Shown here piece after piece: positions 5,891-15,791 of a stretch of 56,323 nt of DNA. The first letter of the stretch is position 1. Each line of letters opens with the position of its first letter. The notes under the pieces are model-generated. The model was not told the DNA's origin. It saw only the letters and a list, made by a program, of their open reading frames with translations, and searched no databases. Position numbers and translations under genes: made by a program. Location: contig CAIWUU010000055.1 of assembly GCA_903915955.1 (NCBI GenBank), positions 1 to 56,323 of the forward strand, given 5' to 3'. The stretch comes from an uncultured Chlorobiaceae bacterium (GTDB lineage: Bacteria; Bacteroidota; Chlorobiia; Chlorobiales; Chlorobiaceae).

Positions 5891-7207
5891 ATGGAACCAT
5901 TACACCCTGAAAATAACCTGCTGACACTCAAAAATATTTGTAAATCGTTCAAGAAGTCAGGAGGCGAAGAGCATCTCGTTCTTGACGGGGTAAGCCTAAA
6001 CATCAAAGAGGGAGAGATTGTTGCGCTCCTGGGACGTTCTGGTTCCGGCAAATCTACTCTGCTTCGGATCATTTCCGGCCTGGCGCGGCCGAGTAGCGGT
6101 GAAGTATTATATGGCGGCAAACCCGTTACCGGTCCGGTAAAAGGGCTAGCGATGGTGTTTCAGACTTTTGCCCTTTTCCCCTGGTTCACTGTCCTTGAAA
6201 ATGTTGAACTGGGATTGGATGCCATGGGTGTGCCTCAAGGTGAACGCCGCCGCCGGGCACTGGCAGCAATTGACTTGATTGGACTGGATGGTTTTGAATC
6301 AGCCTATCCAAAAGAGCTTTCCGGCGGGATGCGACAGCGGGTCGGGTTTGCCCGTGCCCTCGTGGTTGAACCGACATTGCTTCTCATGGACGAAGCTTTT
6401 TCGGCTCTAGATGTCTTGACAGCCGAAACGCTCCGAACCGACTTGATTGAACTCTGGCTGGAACGGCGTATCCCTACCAAGGGGATTTTGCTGGTATCGC
6501 ATAATATCGAAGAAGCCGTTCTTCTTGCAGACCGGATTGTTATTCTTGGAACCAATCCTGGTACAATTTTGGCTGAGATTAACATTCCCTTGCAACATCC
6601 TCGTGACCGTGAGGCTCCGTTGTTCCGCCAGCTTGTTGATGAGGTTTATGAACTCATGACCAAGCGCTCACGGAGTGCCGCTGGCAAGAGCGAAGCAGTC
6701 CCGCTCTCTTATCGTCTGCCAAGTGCTCCCATCAATCAATTGGCTGGATTAATGGAAGCCCTGGAGGCGGAGCCTTATAATGGAAGAGCTGATCTTCCTG
6801 AATTGGCTGATCAGATGGGATTTGGAGTCGAGGAGCTTTTTCCGCTGCTTGAAGCATTGGAGATTCTTGCTTTTGCTCGCACCGAGGGTGGCGACGTCGA
6901 GCTGACCCCATCGGGAAAAAGCTTTGTTGATTCTGACATCCTGCAACGCAAGGTGATTTTTGCCGAACATCTTATTCGCCATGTTGCCCTGGCGGCCCAT
7001 ATTCGCCATATCATTGATGAGCGTCCTGGCAATCGGGCAAAGGAAGATCGTTTTTTGCGTGAACTCGAAGATTTTTTCAGCGAAGATGAGGCCGAAAGAG
7101 TTTTGCAGGTTGCTATTGAATGGGGTCGATACGCGGAACATTTTGCCTATGAAGAAGCGTCAGGCATCTTGAGTCTGGAGAACCCGGGCCGATTTGATGA
7201 GGTTTAG
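5891..7207 (+). CDS. ABC transporter ATP-binding protein with C-terminal AAA-associated domain
   Basis: ATPase of the same transporter, 438 residues. The nucleotide-binding domain (to about residue 260) has Walker A GRSGSGKST, a Q-loop in MVFQTFALFPW, signature LSGGMRQR, Walker B LLLMDEAFSALD and the switch His in VSHNIEEA. About 170 further residues form a helical, winged-helix-like extension (AAA-associated C-terminal domain) found in ATPases paired with double-domain permeases; a regulatory or sensing role is likely. The gene begins 12 bp after the permease stop. Its own stop overlaps the convergent alkaline phosphatase gene by 3 bp, so no terminator separates them. Confidence 0.88.
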   Translation: MEPLHPENNLLTLKNICKSFKKSGGEEHLVLDGVSLNIKEGEIVALLGRSGSGKSTLLRIISGLARPSSGEVLYGGKPVTGPVKGLAMVFQTFALFPWFTVLENVELGLDAMGVPQGERRRRALAAIDLIGLDGFESAYPKELSGGMRQRVGFARALVVEPTLLLMDEAFSALDVLTAETLRTDLIELWLERRIPTKGILLVSHNIEEAVLLADRIVILGTNPGTILAEINIPLQHPRDREAPLFRQLVDEVYELMTKRSRSAAGKSEAVPLSYRLPSAPINQLAGLMEALEAEPYNGRADLPELADQMGFGVEELFPLLEALEILAFARTEGGDVELTPSGKSFVDSDILQRKVIFAEHLIRHVALAAHIRHIIDERPGNRAKEDRFLRELEDFFSEDEAERVLQVAIEWGRYAEHFAYEEASGILSLENPGRFDEV

Positions 7208-8676
7208 ATTACTCGTTTTTTAAGCTTTGCGATCTTCATGATTTTTTTTGCGATATCGGTATTGTCGTAAAATCCCTTGAACGCGTCAGCTCCGCATCCA
7301 ATGGCAAAAACCTGAACCGGCACGGCTGTATGAGCATTGCTGCTCCAGCCGATTGCGGCTCTGCTGTTCAATATGCCGGTTACGGTCGGGCTGAATGTGT
7401 CAGGAATCTTTGTTCCGGCAGATTCGGTTTTCATGGTCGATGTGTAGGCTTCGTGCAGCGCGGTGCTATCCTTGGCGGATAGCGCAAGTGCTGAATTGGC
7501 ATGAGTGAGGCTGAGGCCGTAATAGGTCTTGACACTGTCGAGAGCCATGGGGAAGGTAACGGTACCGCGTTTTTTCCACGTGGAGACTTTTTCGGCAAAC
7601 CCCTGCATCGAAATGTTCTGATGGCGCAGAAGCTCAAAACGGGTTTCGTAACCGTTTGCTGAATTGCCAAGCGAGAGACCGCCGCATTCGTGATCGGCGG
7701 TAACGATTATAAGGGTTTCTTTTGGATGATGGCGGTAAAAGGCAAGGGCTTCTTTTATGGCCTTGTCCAATGCCTCGACATCGTGCGCTGCTGCAGCGGC
7801 ATCGTTGGCATGGCAGGCCCAGTCGATCTTACCTCCTTCAACCATCATGAAAAAGCCTTTGGGGTTATCGAGCAGCCGAATACCTTCGCGGGTAAATTCG
7901 GCAAGCTCAATATCATTCCCTTTACGGCGATCCATGTCAAAGCTCAGTGCTCCTTTGCTGTCATAATCGCTGTATGCCCAGCAGTGCACTCCCGGTTTTA
8001 TGGACGCCAGTTCTGTTTTATTATGGGCAATAACATAATGGGCAGACTGCATGAGAGCCTTAATATCTCCCCGAAAAGCTTTGCTTTTTGCCTGGTTTTC
8101 AGGAAAGTTTCCGGCGCTGTAACCTCCGCCGAAGTAGTCAAAACCGCTTGAAGCCATCTCTTTGGCAATGTCGTACAGGTTGCTGCGTGACGCATTGTGC
8201 GCATAAAAACAGGCCGGTGTTGCGTCGTCGATTCCAACGCTGGAGACAATTCCGGTTTTCATCCCCTTTGCTTTCGCCATTTCAGCAATGGTTCTGAGCG
8301 TATCGAGGTGGTTGCCAGCCATCGAAATGGTACCTATGGTAGTTTTGCTTCCGGTCGCGAGTGCGGTGCTGGCGGCTCCTGAATCGGTGATAAGTTGGTC
8401 TCTGGCATGGGTGGTCGCCATACCGAGTACTGGAAAAGAGGTCATGGCAAGGGAACGACCATTCTCAAGCAGTGCCTCGGAGAGTTTTATCTGAGCTGGC
8501 CCCATGCCATCTCCGATAAAGAGAAAGAGGTAGCGCGGTGTTCTGGTCGTCTCCTTTGGAGCCGCAAGTATTGTCTGGTTTGAGGTAAAACAGGCAGCAT
8601 TTGATACGGTGATGATCAGCAGCGCTAATTTCAGTACTGTTTTGACAGCGCAAAGTTTCCGTCGAAATGCCTTCAT
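7204..8676 (-). CDS. phoA: Alkaline phosphatase (PhoA family), exported
   Basis: Metal-dependent phosphomonoesterase of 490 residues that releases phosphate from organic esters outside the cytoplasm. The N-terminus is a signal sequence of about 30 residues ending near SNAAC, which could be a weak lipobox or a signal peptidase I site. The catalytic core starts with FLFIGDGMGP (metal-binding Asp). The Ser nucleophile lies in TDSGAASTALATG, and later metal ligands are in GGKIDWACHAND and TADHECGG. The Ser and His/Asp ligands of an active enzyme all appear present. The gene is convergent with the ABC transporter operon. No clear 11-bp-repeat Pho box was found upstream. Confidence 0.92.
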   Translation of the reverse strand: MKAFRRKLCAVKTVLKLALLIITVSNAACFTSNQTILAAPKETTRTPRYLFLFIGDGMGPAQIKLSEALLENGRSLAMTSFPVLGMATTHARDQLITDSGAASTALATGSKTTIGTISMAGNHLDTLRTIAEMAKAKGMKTGIVSSVGIDDATPACFYAHNASRSNLYDIAKEMASSGFDYFGGGYSAGNFPENQAKSKAFRGDIKALMQSAHYVIAHNKTELASIKPGVHCWAYSDYDSKGALSFDMDRRKGNDIELAEFTREGIRLLDNPKGFFMMVEGGKIDWACHANDAAAAAHDVEALDKAIKEALAFYRHHPKETLIIVTADHECGGLSLGNSANGYETRFELLRHQNISMQGFAEKVSTWKKRGTVTFPMALDSVKTYYGLSLTHANSALALSAKDSTALHEAYTSTMKTESAGTKIPDTFSPTVTGILNSRAAIGWSSNAHTAVPVQVFAIGCGADAFKGFYDNTDIAKKIMKIAKLKKRVI

Positions 8677-8819: not shown

Positions 8820-9569
8820 CTATTTGCTTCTTTCAAGGTGTGCGCGAAGCTCTTCCCAGAGGTTACGGTAGGCTTTTGATGCAGGGGAGTTTGGCAGAAC
8901 GGCATTGAGTGGCGCCCGGTAGATGCCCATTTTTTCAACCTCGGAATTGTAGGGGATTGTCCCGGTGAGGAATCCCTGTGTGTCCCGGAATTCATCGATA
9001 ATGTCGCGATGCAGTTTTTTCTTTTTTTCCACCATGCTGAAAAATGGCAGGATTTTTGAACTATCAAGTTTATTTGCTTCAAAAAAATCCTTTAACTGGA
9101 TATAGGTGCGAATTGACAGAGTCGTGGGAATCAATGGAACCACGACCACGTCGGAGGCAGCAAAGACACTTTCTGAAAGGAGTGTCAGGTTTGGTGGGCA
9201 ATCAATAAACACAAACCGGTAATCTTCGCTCAGTTCAGTCAGGTTTTTTTTGAGTTTTTTCTGAGGTTTTTTCTCTTCAGAGAGTTCGATATCAAGATTC
9301 CGGTACGAAAAGTCTGATGGGAGCAGGTCAAGGTTTTCAAAGTCTGTTGCCTTGATATGCTGAAAGATCTTTTTGTTTCCCTTCAGGAATTTGTCGCTGT
9401 TGTATTTTTTTGAAGCAGCAATTCTGAAGTAGTATGAGCTTGCGCCCTGCGGATCAAGATCGCAGATCAGTGTCGGCGTTGAGAGCAGGGAAGAGAGGTA
9501 AGAGAGGTTGACTGCCGCAGCAGTTTTACCGACCCCGCCCTTGATGCTGTAAAGCGCTATTGTTTTCAT
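8820..9569 (-). CDS. ParA/MinD-type ATPase paired with a CHAD protein
   Basis: ATPase of 249 residues of the ParA/Soj type. The deviant Walker A loop KGGVGKT carries the signature Lys10 that allows ATP-dependent dimers. Walker A-prime is [11 protein letters not shown] and Walker B is [10 protein letters not shown]. Members of this family bind DNA non-specifically in the ATP form and position cargo such as chromosomes, plasmids, chemosensory arrays or carboxysomes. There is no ParB and no parS-like array nearby. The start codon overlaps the stop of the upstream CHAD gene (ATGA), so the two are translated together. The partner suggests that the cargo is polyphosphate; that is inference. Confidence 0.85.
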
Positions 9570-11140
9570 GTTATAATGCTTGTCAGAAGATCGTGAAACA
9601 GTTGACTGGTTTTCTTGTCGTCAAATGCCGAAAAGGTTTTGTGGAATGTACGGCGTGCCTCTTCCTGTTTTTGAAAAAGGGTTGCCATAAGCCCGCCCAT
9701 TGATGCGGCAAGCAAGTTCTCCTCTTTGCCGTTGGGGATTGCTGTCAGGCGTTCATGAAGAAAGTGCAATTGGACGGAAAAATCGACAAAGTCACCGAGA
9801 TTTTCCTGAAGCTCTTTCAATTGTCTGATAACGGGAACAACCGATTTTTGGGGAAAAATCGAGGAGAAGAATTCAAGCAGATAACGCAGTTTTTTGCAGT
9901 CAATACGCAGTGCATGAAGCTCGCGGTCAGTTGTTTCATGGCTGACCTGACGGCCGTGTCGGATTACTTTTTTCCATGCTTTATTTATGGTATCCAAAGC
10001 CATATCCCTGGTGGAGAGGGAAGCGTTTGGGGAAAGCCTGGGATCAGGAATTGACTGCTCTGTTGTAAAGGAATACCACTCTTCAAGAAAGGATTTGTAT
10101 TCACTGGATGCAAGATAGCGGCAGAACTTTTGGTGCAGCCTCCTGCGTGATGCCGCAATGTCGTTAAAAAAGAGCTGGAGTGATGGCTGGAGAAACCGGG
10201 GAAGATAGTCGAAATAGGTTGCCTGCCGAAGAAGATAGACATCGCTGTCCCTCAATTCGTTGGTACGTTTTCCGAGTTCCCTGAAGAGATTGAGATAATA
10301 TTCGCTCTCCTGGGCATCAAAAACACCCTTGAGCTGTTTCAGGACTGAACGGGTACGGCGTATGGCAACACGATAGTCGTGCAAAAATTCTGAATCGATA
10401 TTTTTTTTGATTCCCTCTTCATTTGCACGCATGACGGAAAAGGTGAACTGAAGCAACCGCCGGGCACTTTCATGAACAGGTGCATCAGCATCCAGCTCAA
10501 GCTTGATTTTTGAAGAGTAATCCTTTGCGTTCCGTCCGGCTGCGTTCAGGATCAGCTTAAAAAGCTCCCTGAAATCCACGATGCTGCAAACGTTATCATC
10601 GTTACACAATAATGACTTCTTGATCAGTTCCATATCATCTTCATATCCCTTGAACGGTGAAAGAGAAAAAAGATGTGCGAAGGTTTCCGGATTCTCTCTG
10701 CCGGCAAGGCATAATGATTCCGAGGTCAGAATGGCGATTGTCTTTTCGTTATCGTCAAGAATGCGGTACGACGTGATGATCGCATCTATAGCGCAGAGTT
10801 TTATGAAAGCCCTGATATCGCTCAATGAAGAGAGCTCTGTTTTAAAACTGCAGGAAGGAAGGTTGTCAGAGAAAAAAGAGCAAGGACTTCCGGGGAATGG
10901 GAGTGAGGCTTTTTCATGCCCGGTGTTGAGATCAGCAAGAAACAGGGCCCTCTTTTTCTTTACAATGACCACCTCTTTTTCAAAAGCCTGCCACTCCATC
11001 GTATCGTAAAACTCTCGACGCTCTTTCCATGATGAAATGGCCTTGAGTTGCCATCCGGAAGAAAGAATTTGTTCAGGCAGCGATTCACTGGATGCAGCCT
11101 GAACCAATTTGAGGTATACCGTTTTCGGTGTGGAGAGCAT
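9566..11140 (-). CDS. CYTH-like/CHAD domain protein (polyphosphate binding)
   Basis: Protein of 524 residues. Residues about 1-200 look like a degenerate CYTH domain (strand pattern around [11 protein letters not shown] and EVVIVKKKR), lacking the clear ExExK motif of active triphosphatases. From about 225 to the end is a CHAD domain, with the two typical basic helices [15 protein letters not shown] and [21 protein letters not shown] domains bind inorganic polyphosphate through these Lys/Arg/His surfaces and locate to polyphosphate granules in other bacteria. No signal peptide. It overlaps a ParA-type gene by 4 bp; ppk and phoU lie 2 kb away. Confidence 0.85.
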
Positions 11141-13016: not shown

Positions 13017-13703
13017 ATGCAAGAACGTCCGGTTCATAAACTTATAAAAGAACTTTCTCAGGTTCTTGTTCAACTCTCCGACAAGGTAGTCGGGAATTTA
13101 TTCAATGCTCTTCATGCTGTGAAATATCAGGATGAACAGAGTGCGCGCCAAATCAGGATTGTTGATGATGAAATTGATGTGGATGAAGTTGACCTCGAAG
13201 AGCGTTGTTTGGCATTTCTTGCGCTCCAACAGCCGGTAGCAAAAGATCTCCGCTCCATAGTTACCATTATTAAGATCAATGAACATCTTGAGCGTATAGG
13301 TGATCTGGCGGTTCATATTATTGAACGTATGCCAGAAATCAGTCCGGAGATGCTTGAGGCCCTTGAGTTGGACAATATGGGTACGCAAGCCGGTAAGATG
13401 GTTAAACAGTCTATTGATGCATTTGTCGCGACAGACCGTTTTCTTGCCAGTCGAATCGGTGTTATGGATGAACAAATTGATGCCATACATCGTAAGGTAT
13501 TCAAGAGTATCGCCTTGCTCATGAAAAGTCCGGATTCGGATAGTAATGAGCTTTTAGCGGCCTTGAGTATATCGAGATATATCGAACGTATGGCTGATCA
13601 TGCCAGTCGTATAGCCAATGAGGTTATTTTTCTTGTAACAGGGGAAAATGTGCGGCATACCGAATGGTCCAATGAAAAACTTATAAACTCTTCACGGTAT
13701 TGA
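13017..13703 (+). CDS. phoU: Phosphate signalling protein PhoU
   Basis: Helical protein of 228 residues made of two three-helix bundles, each with the metal-binding family motif: LEERCLAFLALQQPVAKDLR with IKINEHLERIGDLAVHI in the first, and ALSISRYIERMADHASRIANEVIF in the second. PhoU links the phosphate transporter to the PhoR kinase and represses the Pho regulon when phosphate is abundant. It is followed after 6 bp by ppk, so the two form an operon. No pst transporter genes are in the window. The ATG at 13017 gives the usual family N-terminus. Confidence 0.93.
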   Translation: MQERPVHKLIKELSQVLVQLSDKVVGNLFNALHAVKYQDEQSARQIRIVDDEIDVDEVDLEERCLAFLALQQPVAKDLRSIVTIIKINEHLERIGDLAVHIIERMPEISPEMLEALELDNMGTQAGKMVKQSIDAFVATDRFLASRIGVMDEQIDAIHRKVFKSIALLMKSPDSDSNELLAALSISRYIERMADHASRIANEVIFLVTGENVRHTEWSNEKLINSSRY

Positions 13704-13709
13704 CTGCTA

Positions 13710-15791
13710 ATGTCTTTTCTTGATTCCTCCCATTATGTCAATAGGGAGTTGAGCTGGCTCCATTTCAATCAGCGTGTGCTCGAAGAAGCTCTCGATCCTG
13801 AAGCCCATCCGCTTTTGGAAAGAGTCAAATTCATCTCGATTTTCAGCTCAAACCTTGATGAGTATTTCATGATCCGGGTTGCCGGTATTGAGGATCAGTA
13901 TGAGGCGGGTGTAGGAGATCGGACTATCGACGGCCATACTCCATCCGAGCAGCTTGAAAAAATCCGAACGATGGTCTTGTTGCAGCTTAGTCAGCGGAAC
14001 AGGTGCTTTTACCTTGATCTGGTGCCAGCACTTAAGCTTGAGGGCATTGAGTTCCTTCGGGTTTCAGAATTATCTGCTACAAAGCAAAAAGCCCTGAGTC
14101 TTTATTTTCGCAGGGAGATCTATCCCGTATTGACCCCGTTGGCTTTCGATACCGGTCACCCATTTCCTTTTATGTCGAACCTTTCACTGAACCTCGCCAT
14201 AGAAATTGCAGATGATGAAACCCGTATACTGAAGTTCGCCCGTGTCAAAGTTCCGAGCATTTTGCCAAGACTTGTTCGGGTAAATGAAATCCGGGGTTTT
14301 GAAGATAATGACGGGATAATCCGCTATATCTGGCTCGAAGATCTTATTGAAAACAATCTGGCGCAGTTGTTCCCCAAAATAAGGATCACCCGGGCGCATC
14401 TTTTCAGATTAATCCGCAATGCTGATGTTGAAATTGAGGAGGATGAAGCAGGAGATTTGCTCAAGACTATTGAAAAGGGAATTCGCTCACGCCGTTACGG
14501 AAAGGTTGTTCGCCTTGACATTACTCCGGCAATGCCTGTGCCGGTGAGGAAGCTTCTCATGAAAAATCTTGGTGTTGCCGAAAGAAACGTCTATGAAATA
14601 GATGGAGCTCTTGGACTCGGTTCTCTTATGGAACTTCTGAAAATTGAACGACCCTCTTTAAAAGATGAGCCCTATGTGCAAAATAATCCTATAGAGGAGC
14701 AGTCCACCCCTGATATCTTCAGCGCCATTAAAGCCAAAGATCAGTTACTCTATCATCCTTACGACTCATTTCAGCCTGTTGTAGATTTTATCAAACAAGC
14801 CGCCATTGATCCTGATGTGCTTTCGATAAAGCAGACGCTGTACAGGGTTGGCAGCAACTCTCCAATAGTCAAAGCCTTGATGATGGCTGCTGAAGCGGGT
14901 AAACAGGTCGCCGTTCTCGTGGAACTGAAGGCAAGGTTTGATGAAGGAAACAACATTATCTGGGCACGAGCGCTTGAGAATGTCGGAGCGCACGTAGCCT
15001 ACGGCCTGCCTGGACTGAAAACCCACGCAAAGCTTACCTTGATTGTGCGTCGTGAACAAAAAAAGCTTAAACGGTATCTGCATCTTGGCACTGGTAACTA
15101 CAATCCTGCGACCGGCAAGATGTACACTGATTATAGCTTGTTTACTGTCAATGAACAGCTTGCCAACGATGTTGCAGAACTGTTCAACGCTTTGACTGGA
15201 TATTCAAAGCATACCGAGTACAGAAAACTGCTTGTCTCGCCGATCAATACCCGCAAAAGGATTATTGAAATGATAGAAAGGGAGGCTGAATGGAGCCGGA
15301 AGGAGAGCAAGGGAAGAATTGTTATGAAAATGAATTCCCTGGTTGATGCCAAAACCATCCGGGCACTCTACAGTGCATCGTGCGAAGGGGTGAAGATTGA
15401 TCTTATCATACGTGGGATATGCTGTCTGAAGCCAGGTATTCCTGAAATCAGTGAAAATATCAGGGTAATCAGTGTAATCGGACGTTTTCTGGAGCATAGC
15501 AGAGCTTACTACTTTCATAACGGCGGCAAGGAGGAGTTATTTCTGGGAAGTGCCGATATCATGCAGCGAAATCTTGATGATCGTGTGGAGACCCTTTTTC
15601 CTGTGTTTGACAAATCGATAATCCGGATTGTCAAAACGGATCTTGATCTGATTCTGAGCGATAATGTCAAGGCATGGGAGATGAATGCTGAAGCAATATA
15701 CTCGAAGATCAGCAATGAGGGCTTAAAAGTTAATAGTCAGGCTCTCTTTTTAACCAGATTGGATCAGAAAAAAAACCTCATATCACAGTGA
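13710..15791 (+). CDS. ppk1: Polyphosphate kinase 1
   Basis: Enzyme of 693 residues that builds inorganic polyphosphate from ATP and can run in reverse. The N-terminal domain has [13 protein letters not shown] and [12 protein letters not shown]. The two phospholipase-D-like catalytic domains contain the autophosphorylated His in [15 protein letters not shown] and the second essential His in [30 protein letters not shown] is the family signature. The length is normal. Translation is coupled to phoU. It would supply the polymer bound by the CHAD protein encoded at 9566-11140. Confidence 0.96.

Follow-up and report, generated by a model that had tools for sequence, protein, structure and literature searches.

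A conserved CHAD-ParA gene pair as a candidate positioning module for polyphosphate granules in Chlorobiaceae and other bacteria

Polyphosphate granules serve as storage bodies in a wide range of bacteria, and in several species their placement is non-random. A pair of overlapping genes in a 56,323-nt contig of an uncultured Chlorobiaceae bacterium (hereafter the window) raises the question of whether bacteria may possess a dedicated machine that moves or spaces these phosphate-storage granules. According to a 2025 review of organelle positioning, the proteins responsible for polyphosphate granule placement in Caulobacter are unidentified and whether placement costs ATP remains to be seen; the review names no ATPase for polyphosphate granules (PMC13052382). 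The main text of a 2023 survey of ParA/MinD proteins mentions neither CHAD nor polyphosphate (PMC10241942), and a search of the open-access literature returned nothing on an orphan ParA with polyphosphate or on ParA-like proteins with polyphosphate granules. The gene cluster itself was noticed earlier: two Acidithiobacillus papers, on copper and cAMP, place parA beside CHAD and ppk1 and read the arrangement as chromosome or plasmid partition (PMC6416229, PMC10892726). The folD-ppk-parA-CHAD cluster of Acidithiobacillus probably contains the same pair beside ppk, a likeness drawn from gene context alone; these studies differ from the present one in giving only the gene context and in terming ParA a partition protein. 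Thus, the statement in a preliminary description of the window that no description of such a system was known appears, within the open-access literature searched, to hold for the granule-positioning interpretation, but not for the cluster.

The CHAD-ParA locus and its products

The window encodes a CHAD protein followed on the same strand by a ParA-type ATPase (Table 1). Both open reading frames and their 4-bp overlap were found as described earlier, and ppk1 and phoU, which had been placed about 2 kb away, were both identified on the strand opposite to CHAD, at 2.6 and 1.9 kb from the CHAD start, respectively. A homolog of the alkaline phosphatase occurs upstream of ppk1 in three loci of the host family (L046, L047, and L050). 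The predicted absence of ParB and parS was borne out, since the window contains no parS match with up to three mismatches allowed and the sole ParB_N match in the genome lies on another contig (C186). No McdB homolog or carboxysome gene was found near the pair, whose neighborhood is made up of the CHAD, LRR, phoU, ppk1, and alkaline phosphatase genes. The LRR-like protein is characterized by repeated DCS/NCSGN motifs and its gene usually adjoins CHAD or ppk1 in the family; it is perhaps a further granule protein.

Table 1. Features of the CHAD-ParA locus in the window
Feature	Coordinates	Strand	Evidence or remark
Alkaline phosphatase, encoded downstream of ParA	7204-8676	-	Pfam E=1.3e-65
ParA-type ATPase, 249 aa, distinct subfamily	8820-9569	-	Pfam AAA_31 E=1.1e-32
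Deviant Walker A KGGVGKT of ParA (K10 signature Lys, K15)	9522-9542	-	
ATGA overlap, 4 bp, CHAD stop / ParA start	9566-9569	-	translational coupling
CHAD protein, 524 aa	9566-11140	-	Pfam CHAD E=4.5e-54, residues 230-462
CHAD domain, long type, residues ~208-522	9575-10519	-	
N-terminal domain of CHAD protein, residues ~1-205	10526-11140	-	predicted degenerate TTM/CYTH fold, ExExK lost
LRR-like repeat protein, 389 aa	11336-12505	-	between CHAD and phoU
phoU	13017-13703	+	TIGR02135 E=3.7e-55
ppk1, polyphosphate kinase 1	13710-15791	+	TIGR03705, 854 bits

The ATPase shares with ParA of the ParABS systems (Soj/Spo0J) the ParA fold, the KGGVGKT sequence, and the Walker motifs; however, it belongs to a system without ParB and parS and to a separate subfamily with conserved residues of its own. 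This subfamily splits from two Soj-like outgroups in the phylogenetic tree (SH-aLRT 100), and its conserved residues that are absent from both outgroups include Y7, R90, E133, R154, K184, H187, M214, and W238; E212 is a further conserved residue that sets it apart from ParABS proteins. The signature lysine (K10), the Walker A lysine (K15), and the Walker B aspartate, among the residues K10, K15, D39, and D123 that are invariant in 89 subfamily sequences, confirm the signature-lysine assignment made earlier. The equivalent of Soj R189 is R/K183 in 97% of sequences, and the adjacent K184 is also basic, whereas the equivalent of Soj R218 is E/D or another non-basic residue, which counts against a positioning function. 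DNA-binding residues vary widely across the ParA superfamily (PMC7229837), so that nucleoid binding by the subfamily is plausible.

The CHAD protein matches the crystallized CtCHAD of Chlorobium (Chlorobaculum) tepidum (PDB 3e0s/6qv7) with a phmmer E-value of about 1e-111 and is the ortholog of CtCHAD. Moreover, the crystallized protein is itself encoded in a ppk1-LRR-CHAD-ParA cluster of the host family: the CHAD protein of genome G060 is identical to it letter for letter over the ~315 residues compared, which places the window among the green sulfur bacteria. CtCHAD binds polyphosphate via H253, R256, R260, R296, and R418/Y419 together with outer patches; it forms dimers and tetramers and oligomerizes with long polyphosphate, and the study did not settle what it does in the cell (PMC6537752). 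Of the 12 contact residues that were mutated there, the window protein retains 11 as its H254, R257, R261, R297, K387, K390, K391, R419, Y420, R439, and K442, whereas R385 of CtCHAD is replaced by N386; the two intact basic helices proposed in the preliminary description are therefore real at the residue level. The central contacts are nearly invariant in the ParA-linked CHAD proteins of all phyla. The window protein thus resembles CtCHAD and the phosins as a CtCHAD ortholog with its polyphosphate contacts kept, and differs in its ParA partner, of which the accessible text of the CtCHAD publication makes no mention (PMC6537752). CHAD proteins, including those of R. eutropha, are located on granules in vivo, as cited in two papers (PMC6537752, PMC9239181). 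Deletion of CHAD in R. eutropha is cited as having no apparent phenotype (PMC6537752), which we count against a positioning function.

The full-length CHAD protein is modeled by AlphaFold2 with a pLDDT of 92, and its N-terminal domain (residues ~1-205) with a pLDDT of 90. No Pfam family matched the N-terminal domains; the relationship to triphosphate tunnel enzymes is visible from the structure only, with Foldseek matches at E~1e-5 and structure alignments at Z 13.7 to 6yp4 and 12.6 to E. coli ygiF (5a60), in fold lists that leave room for other folds. The model identifies this domain as a predicted degenerate TTM/CYTH fold. Across the ParA-linked CHAD proteins, the ExExK metal/substrate motif is replaced in the alignment by an FxLP-type strand, and since the motif is missing throughout, the domain is probably not catalytic. 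The E. coli protein has the same TTM-CHAD domain order and an alignable TTM domain; however, it is catalytically active as a triphosphatase and its CHAD domain is short, whereas the window protein has lost ExExK and has a ParA partner. The N-terminal domain was also considered as a required docking part for ParA. This role is weakened by three pairs of the class sample described below (G466, G513, and G577), in which a CHAD protein of ~320 aa has no N-terminal domain and the ParA gene is adjacent; thus, CHAD and ParA can be paired without it.

Conservation of the gene pair in the host family and across phyla

Among 86 genomes of the host family, ParA is encoded in 80 and CHAD in 79, and the two genes are adjacent on one contig in 71. 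Both are missing from the same six genomes, and their co-occurrence gives a Fisher p-value of 1.5e-8 overall and 4.8e-4 for complete genomes, values that ignore kinship (neither neighbors nor kin are independent) and indicate direction only. In one further genome (G013), the pair apparently has the same arrangement, interrupted by a contig end. Seven genomes carry a solo ParA and retain CHAD elsewhere, in six of them directly before ppk1. The LRR-like gene is a conserved neighbor in the family, in the order ppk1-LRR-CHAD-ParA or phoU-LRR-CHAD-ppk1; in a second genus of the family, almost every genome has the former order, with all four genes on one strand. The ppk1 gene occurs in 83 of the 86 genomes, thus the pair is dispensable for making polyphosphate. 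The persistence of ppk1 where the pair is lost counts against a positioning function. For example, two genomes without CHAD and ParA (G057 and G090) are each at least 98% complete and retain ppk1; G057 has one ppk1 copy, whereas its sister genomes mostly have two. These two genomes are natural controls for granule spacing. In G019 (L028, 2769-3579), a frame disruption splits the ParA gene and leaves CHAD intact, which reflects either a sequencing error or decay.

A second CHAD-ParA pair in the assembly of the window (contig C17 of G000) was considered as a paralog. It shares 91% identity across 5 kb with a contig of another species (G019), may be contamination, and was left out of the evidence. 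This pair (L023, 1-11444) lies near phoU and a pst-like ABC ATPase gene, followed by a PhoR-like PAS histidine kinase.

When 345 genomes from the host phylum were searched with a profile, the ParA subfamily, at 216-497 bits, stood apart from the other ParA proteins of the phylum, which reach no more than ~120 bits. The subfamily also occurs in seven distant genomes of the phylum at 216-287 bits (the next match is at ~120), one of which (G121) has the gene order SixA-CHAD-ParA. A cross-phylum set of 80 similarity-ranked loci was collected with one genome per species and a distant member as the first sequence. CHAD lies immediately upstream on the same strand in 60 of these loci, not counting L149, where it is 4 kb away, and exactly 4 nt overlap in 38 of the 57 pairs from other taxa with scorable starts. 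The subfamily is present in at least nine phyla: Bacteroidota/Chlorobiota are represented by the host family and G121, and Pseudomonadota by Sedimenticola, Methylomonas lenta, Nitrosomonas marina, and Thalassobaculum, while the further phyla listed are Actinomycetota, Dormibacterota, Acidobacteriota, Planctomycetota, Gemmatimonadota, Chloroflexota, and Thermodesulfobacteriota. Other shared neighbors of the 80 loci (91 ORFs) are scattered and comprise histidine phosphatase (6), ppk1 (3), PhoR (2), and PPK2 (1).

Since the 80 loci are similarity-ranked, we added an evenly drawn sample of 229 genomes from the class of M. lenta, in which ParA was found in 34 genomes and CHAD (E<=1e-25) in 62. Both genes occur in 28 genomes vs. 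9.2 expected (p 2e-13), and CHAD adjoins ParA in 25 of the 34 ParA-encoding genomes. The 34 of 62 CHAD-encoding genomes without the subfamily ParA count against a positioning function. Sequence identities of ParA and CHAD are correlated among 56 pairs (r 0.63, permutation maximum 0.22), which we take to show shared descent rather than contact. Conservation of the adjacency had been proposed in advance as a check, and the outcome is strongly positive in the family, among the 80 loci, and in the class sample; being conserved family-wide and across phyla, the adjacency is beyond chance.

Granule positioning and alternative explanations

There is good support for this ParA acting jointly with the polyphosphate machinery, because the adjacency is conserved and the CHAD protein is the ortholog of a proven polyphosphate binder. 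As the best explanation, we propose that the pair constitutes a ParA-type positioning module with the polyphosphate granule as cargo and CHAD as its adaptor, with a probability of about 0.6. We infer contact between CHAD and ParA, stimulation of the ATPase, DNA binding, and granule movement, as follows. CHAD would coat the granule, binding polyphosphate through its basic pore, a mode of binding known from the C. tepidum ortholog, and would act as the partner that recruits ParA and/or stimulates its ATPase. ATP-bound ParA dimers would bind the nucleoid non-specifically, granule-bound CHAD would locally strip ParA from DNA, and the granules would drift up the resulting ParA gradient, so that they become spaced and shared between daughter cells, as carboxysomes are by McdAB. 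The window pair resembles McdAB in combining a ParA-type ATPase with a presumed cargo-binding partner beside cargo genes and in lacking ParB and parS; however, the partner is a folded TTM-CHAD polyphosphate binder instead of McdB, the proposed cargo is polyphosphate, and McdA structures are only a distant sequence match to the window ParA. The dedicated spacing or segregation system suggested in the preliminary description is thus favored by the conserved adjacency and the polyphosphate-binding ortholog, spacing and segregation themselves being presumptive, while its comparison of the granules with acidocalcisomes found no support. We lean, slightly less firmly, towards the wider proposal of an undescribed ATP-driven positioning of polyphosphate granules in at least nine phyla, with a TTM-CHAD adaptor and a dedicated ParA motor, in which PPK1 or another factor replaces CHAD in some lineages.

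The strongest rival explanation is that the ParA-like ATPase moves nothing and instead regulates CHAD, PPK1, or polyphosphate turnover through its ATP/ADP state, as an energy sensor of the granule. The linkage to ppk1, SixA-type phosphatases, and Pho genes fits such regulation equally well, one of the two canonical DNA-binding arginines is lost, and not every P-loop ATPase in the broader superfamily is a positioner. We nevertheless consider it unlikely, though worth keeping in mind: the invariant signature lysine, the dimer-type Walker A, and the basic R183-K184 fit a DNA-bound switch ATPase, and positioning systems usually combine a ParA gene with one for a cargo-binding partner (PMC10241942). 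Improbable to a greater degree is a passive arrangement, in which ParA and CHAD fix granules to the nucleoid for inheritance with the chromosome and no depletion gradient forms, as with the DNA-binding proteins AlgP and PhaM. It would use the same parts, and the known placement of polyphosphate and PHB granules in several bacteria needs nucleoid-binding adaptors (PMC13052382, PMC9239181), but an ATPase with invariant hydrolysis motifs would be superfluous. In this respect, AlgP of P. aeruginosa shares with the proposed module the spacing of polyphosphate granules as its outcome, whereas AlgP is a histone H1-like tether without an ATPase.

That a plasmid or chromosome partition ParA lies beside CHAD as a relic or by accident agrees with the label of partition protein in two papers (PMC6416229, PMC10892726) and with the occurrence of the subfamily ParA without CHAD in Chitinophagaceae. 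However, the pair is common to at least nine phyla, mostly with the 4-nt overlap, ParB and parS are absent from the window, and the ParA subfamily is distinct; the adjacency across phyla, the overlaps, and the class sample make a relic or chance neighborhood very unlikely. The positioning module, if real, would give a job to CHAD proteins. The pair offers a named candidate motor and adaptor, a solved adaptor-polyphosphate structure, and cultivable organisms; therefore, the question of granule placement is directly testable.

Solo ParA genes and other genomic contexts

The phylogenetic tree of the ParA subfamily, a quick reconstruction with many weak branches, has adjacency to CHAD as the common state, with solo genes nested in paired clades, for instance in Methylococcaceae. 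Among the 18 solo-ParA genomes of the 80-locus set, 11 encode a long CHAD protein elsewhere, and several of these CHAD genes lie beside SixA-like histidine phosphatase, phosphate-binding-protein-like, or Ppx-like genes. In Marinobacter (L171, 5007-8040), ParA is convergent with ppk1 and a search of the genome for CHAD gave no match, while in G535 ParA is directly downstream of ppk1 and no CHAD match was obtained at E<=1e-25. With ParA directly adjoining ppk1 at L171 and L206 (3632-6689), these two cases suggest that PPK1 or another factor can serve as the granule link in genomes without a CHAD match.

The main counter-evidence to granule positioning comes from a Chitinophagaceae-type clade, in which most genomes tested encode the subfamily ParA without CHAD. 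ParA is followed in this clade (L093, L094, L165, L181, and L182) by a conserved ~250-aa protein with SWYSPAL/SWHSPAL near its start, possibly a different partner.

The solo ParA genes of Methylococcaceae are located upstream of glycogen phosphorylase (L118, L124, and L174; Pfam-confirmed for L118), of an MgtE-type Mg transporter (L161 and L164; Pfam-confirmed for L161), or of a small conserved gene resembling D-aminoacyl-tRNA deacylase (L119, L122, and L133). In another family of the host phylum, the gene for a canonical Soj-type ParA has a short CHAD-like ORF in its vicinity, at a distance of ~0.8 kb (L096, 4217-6220).
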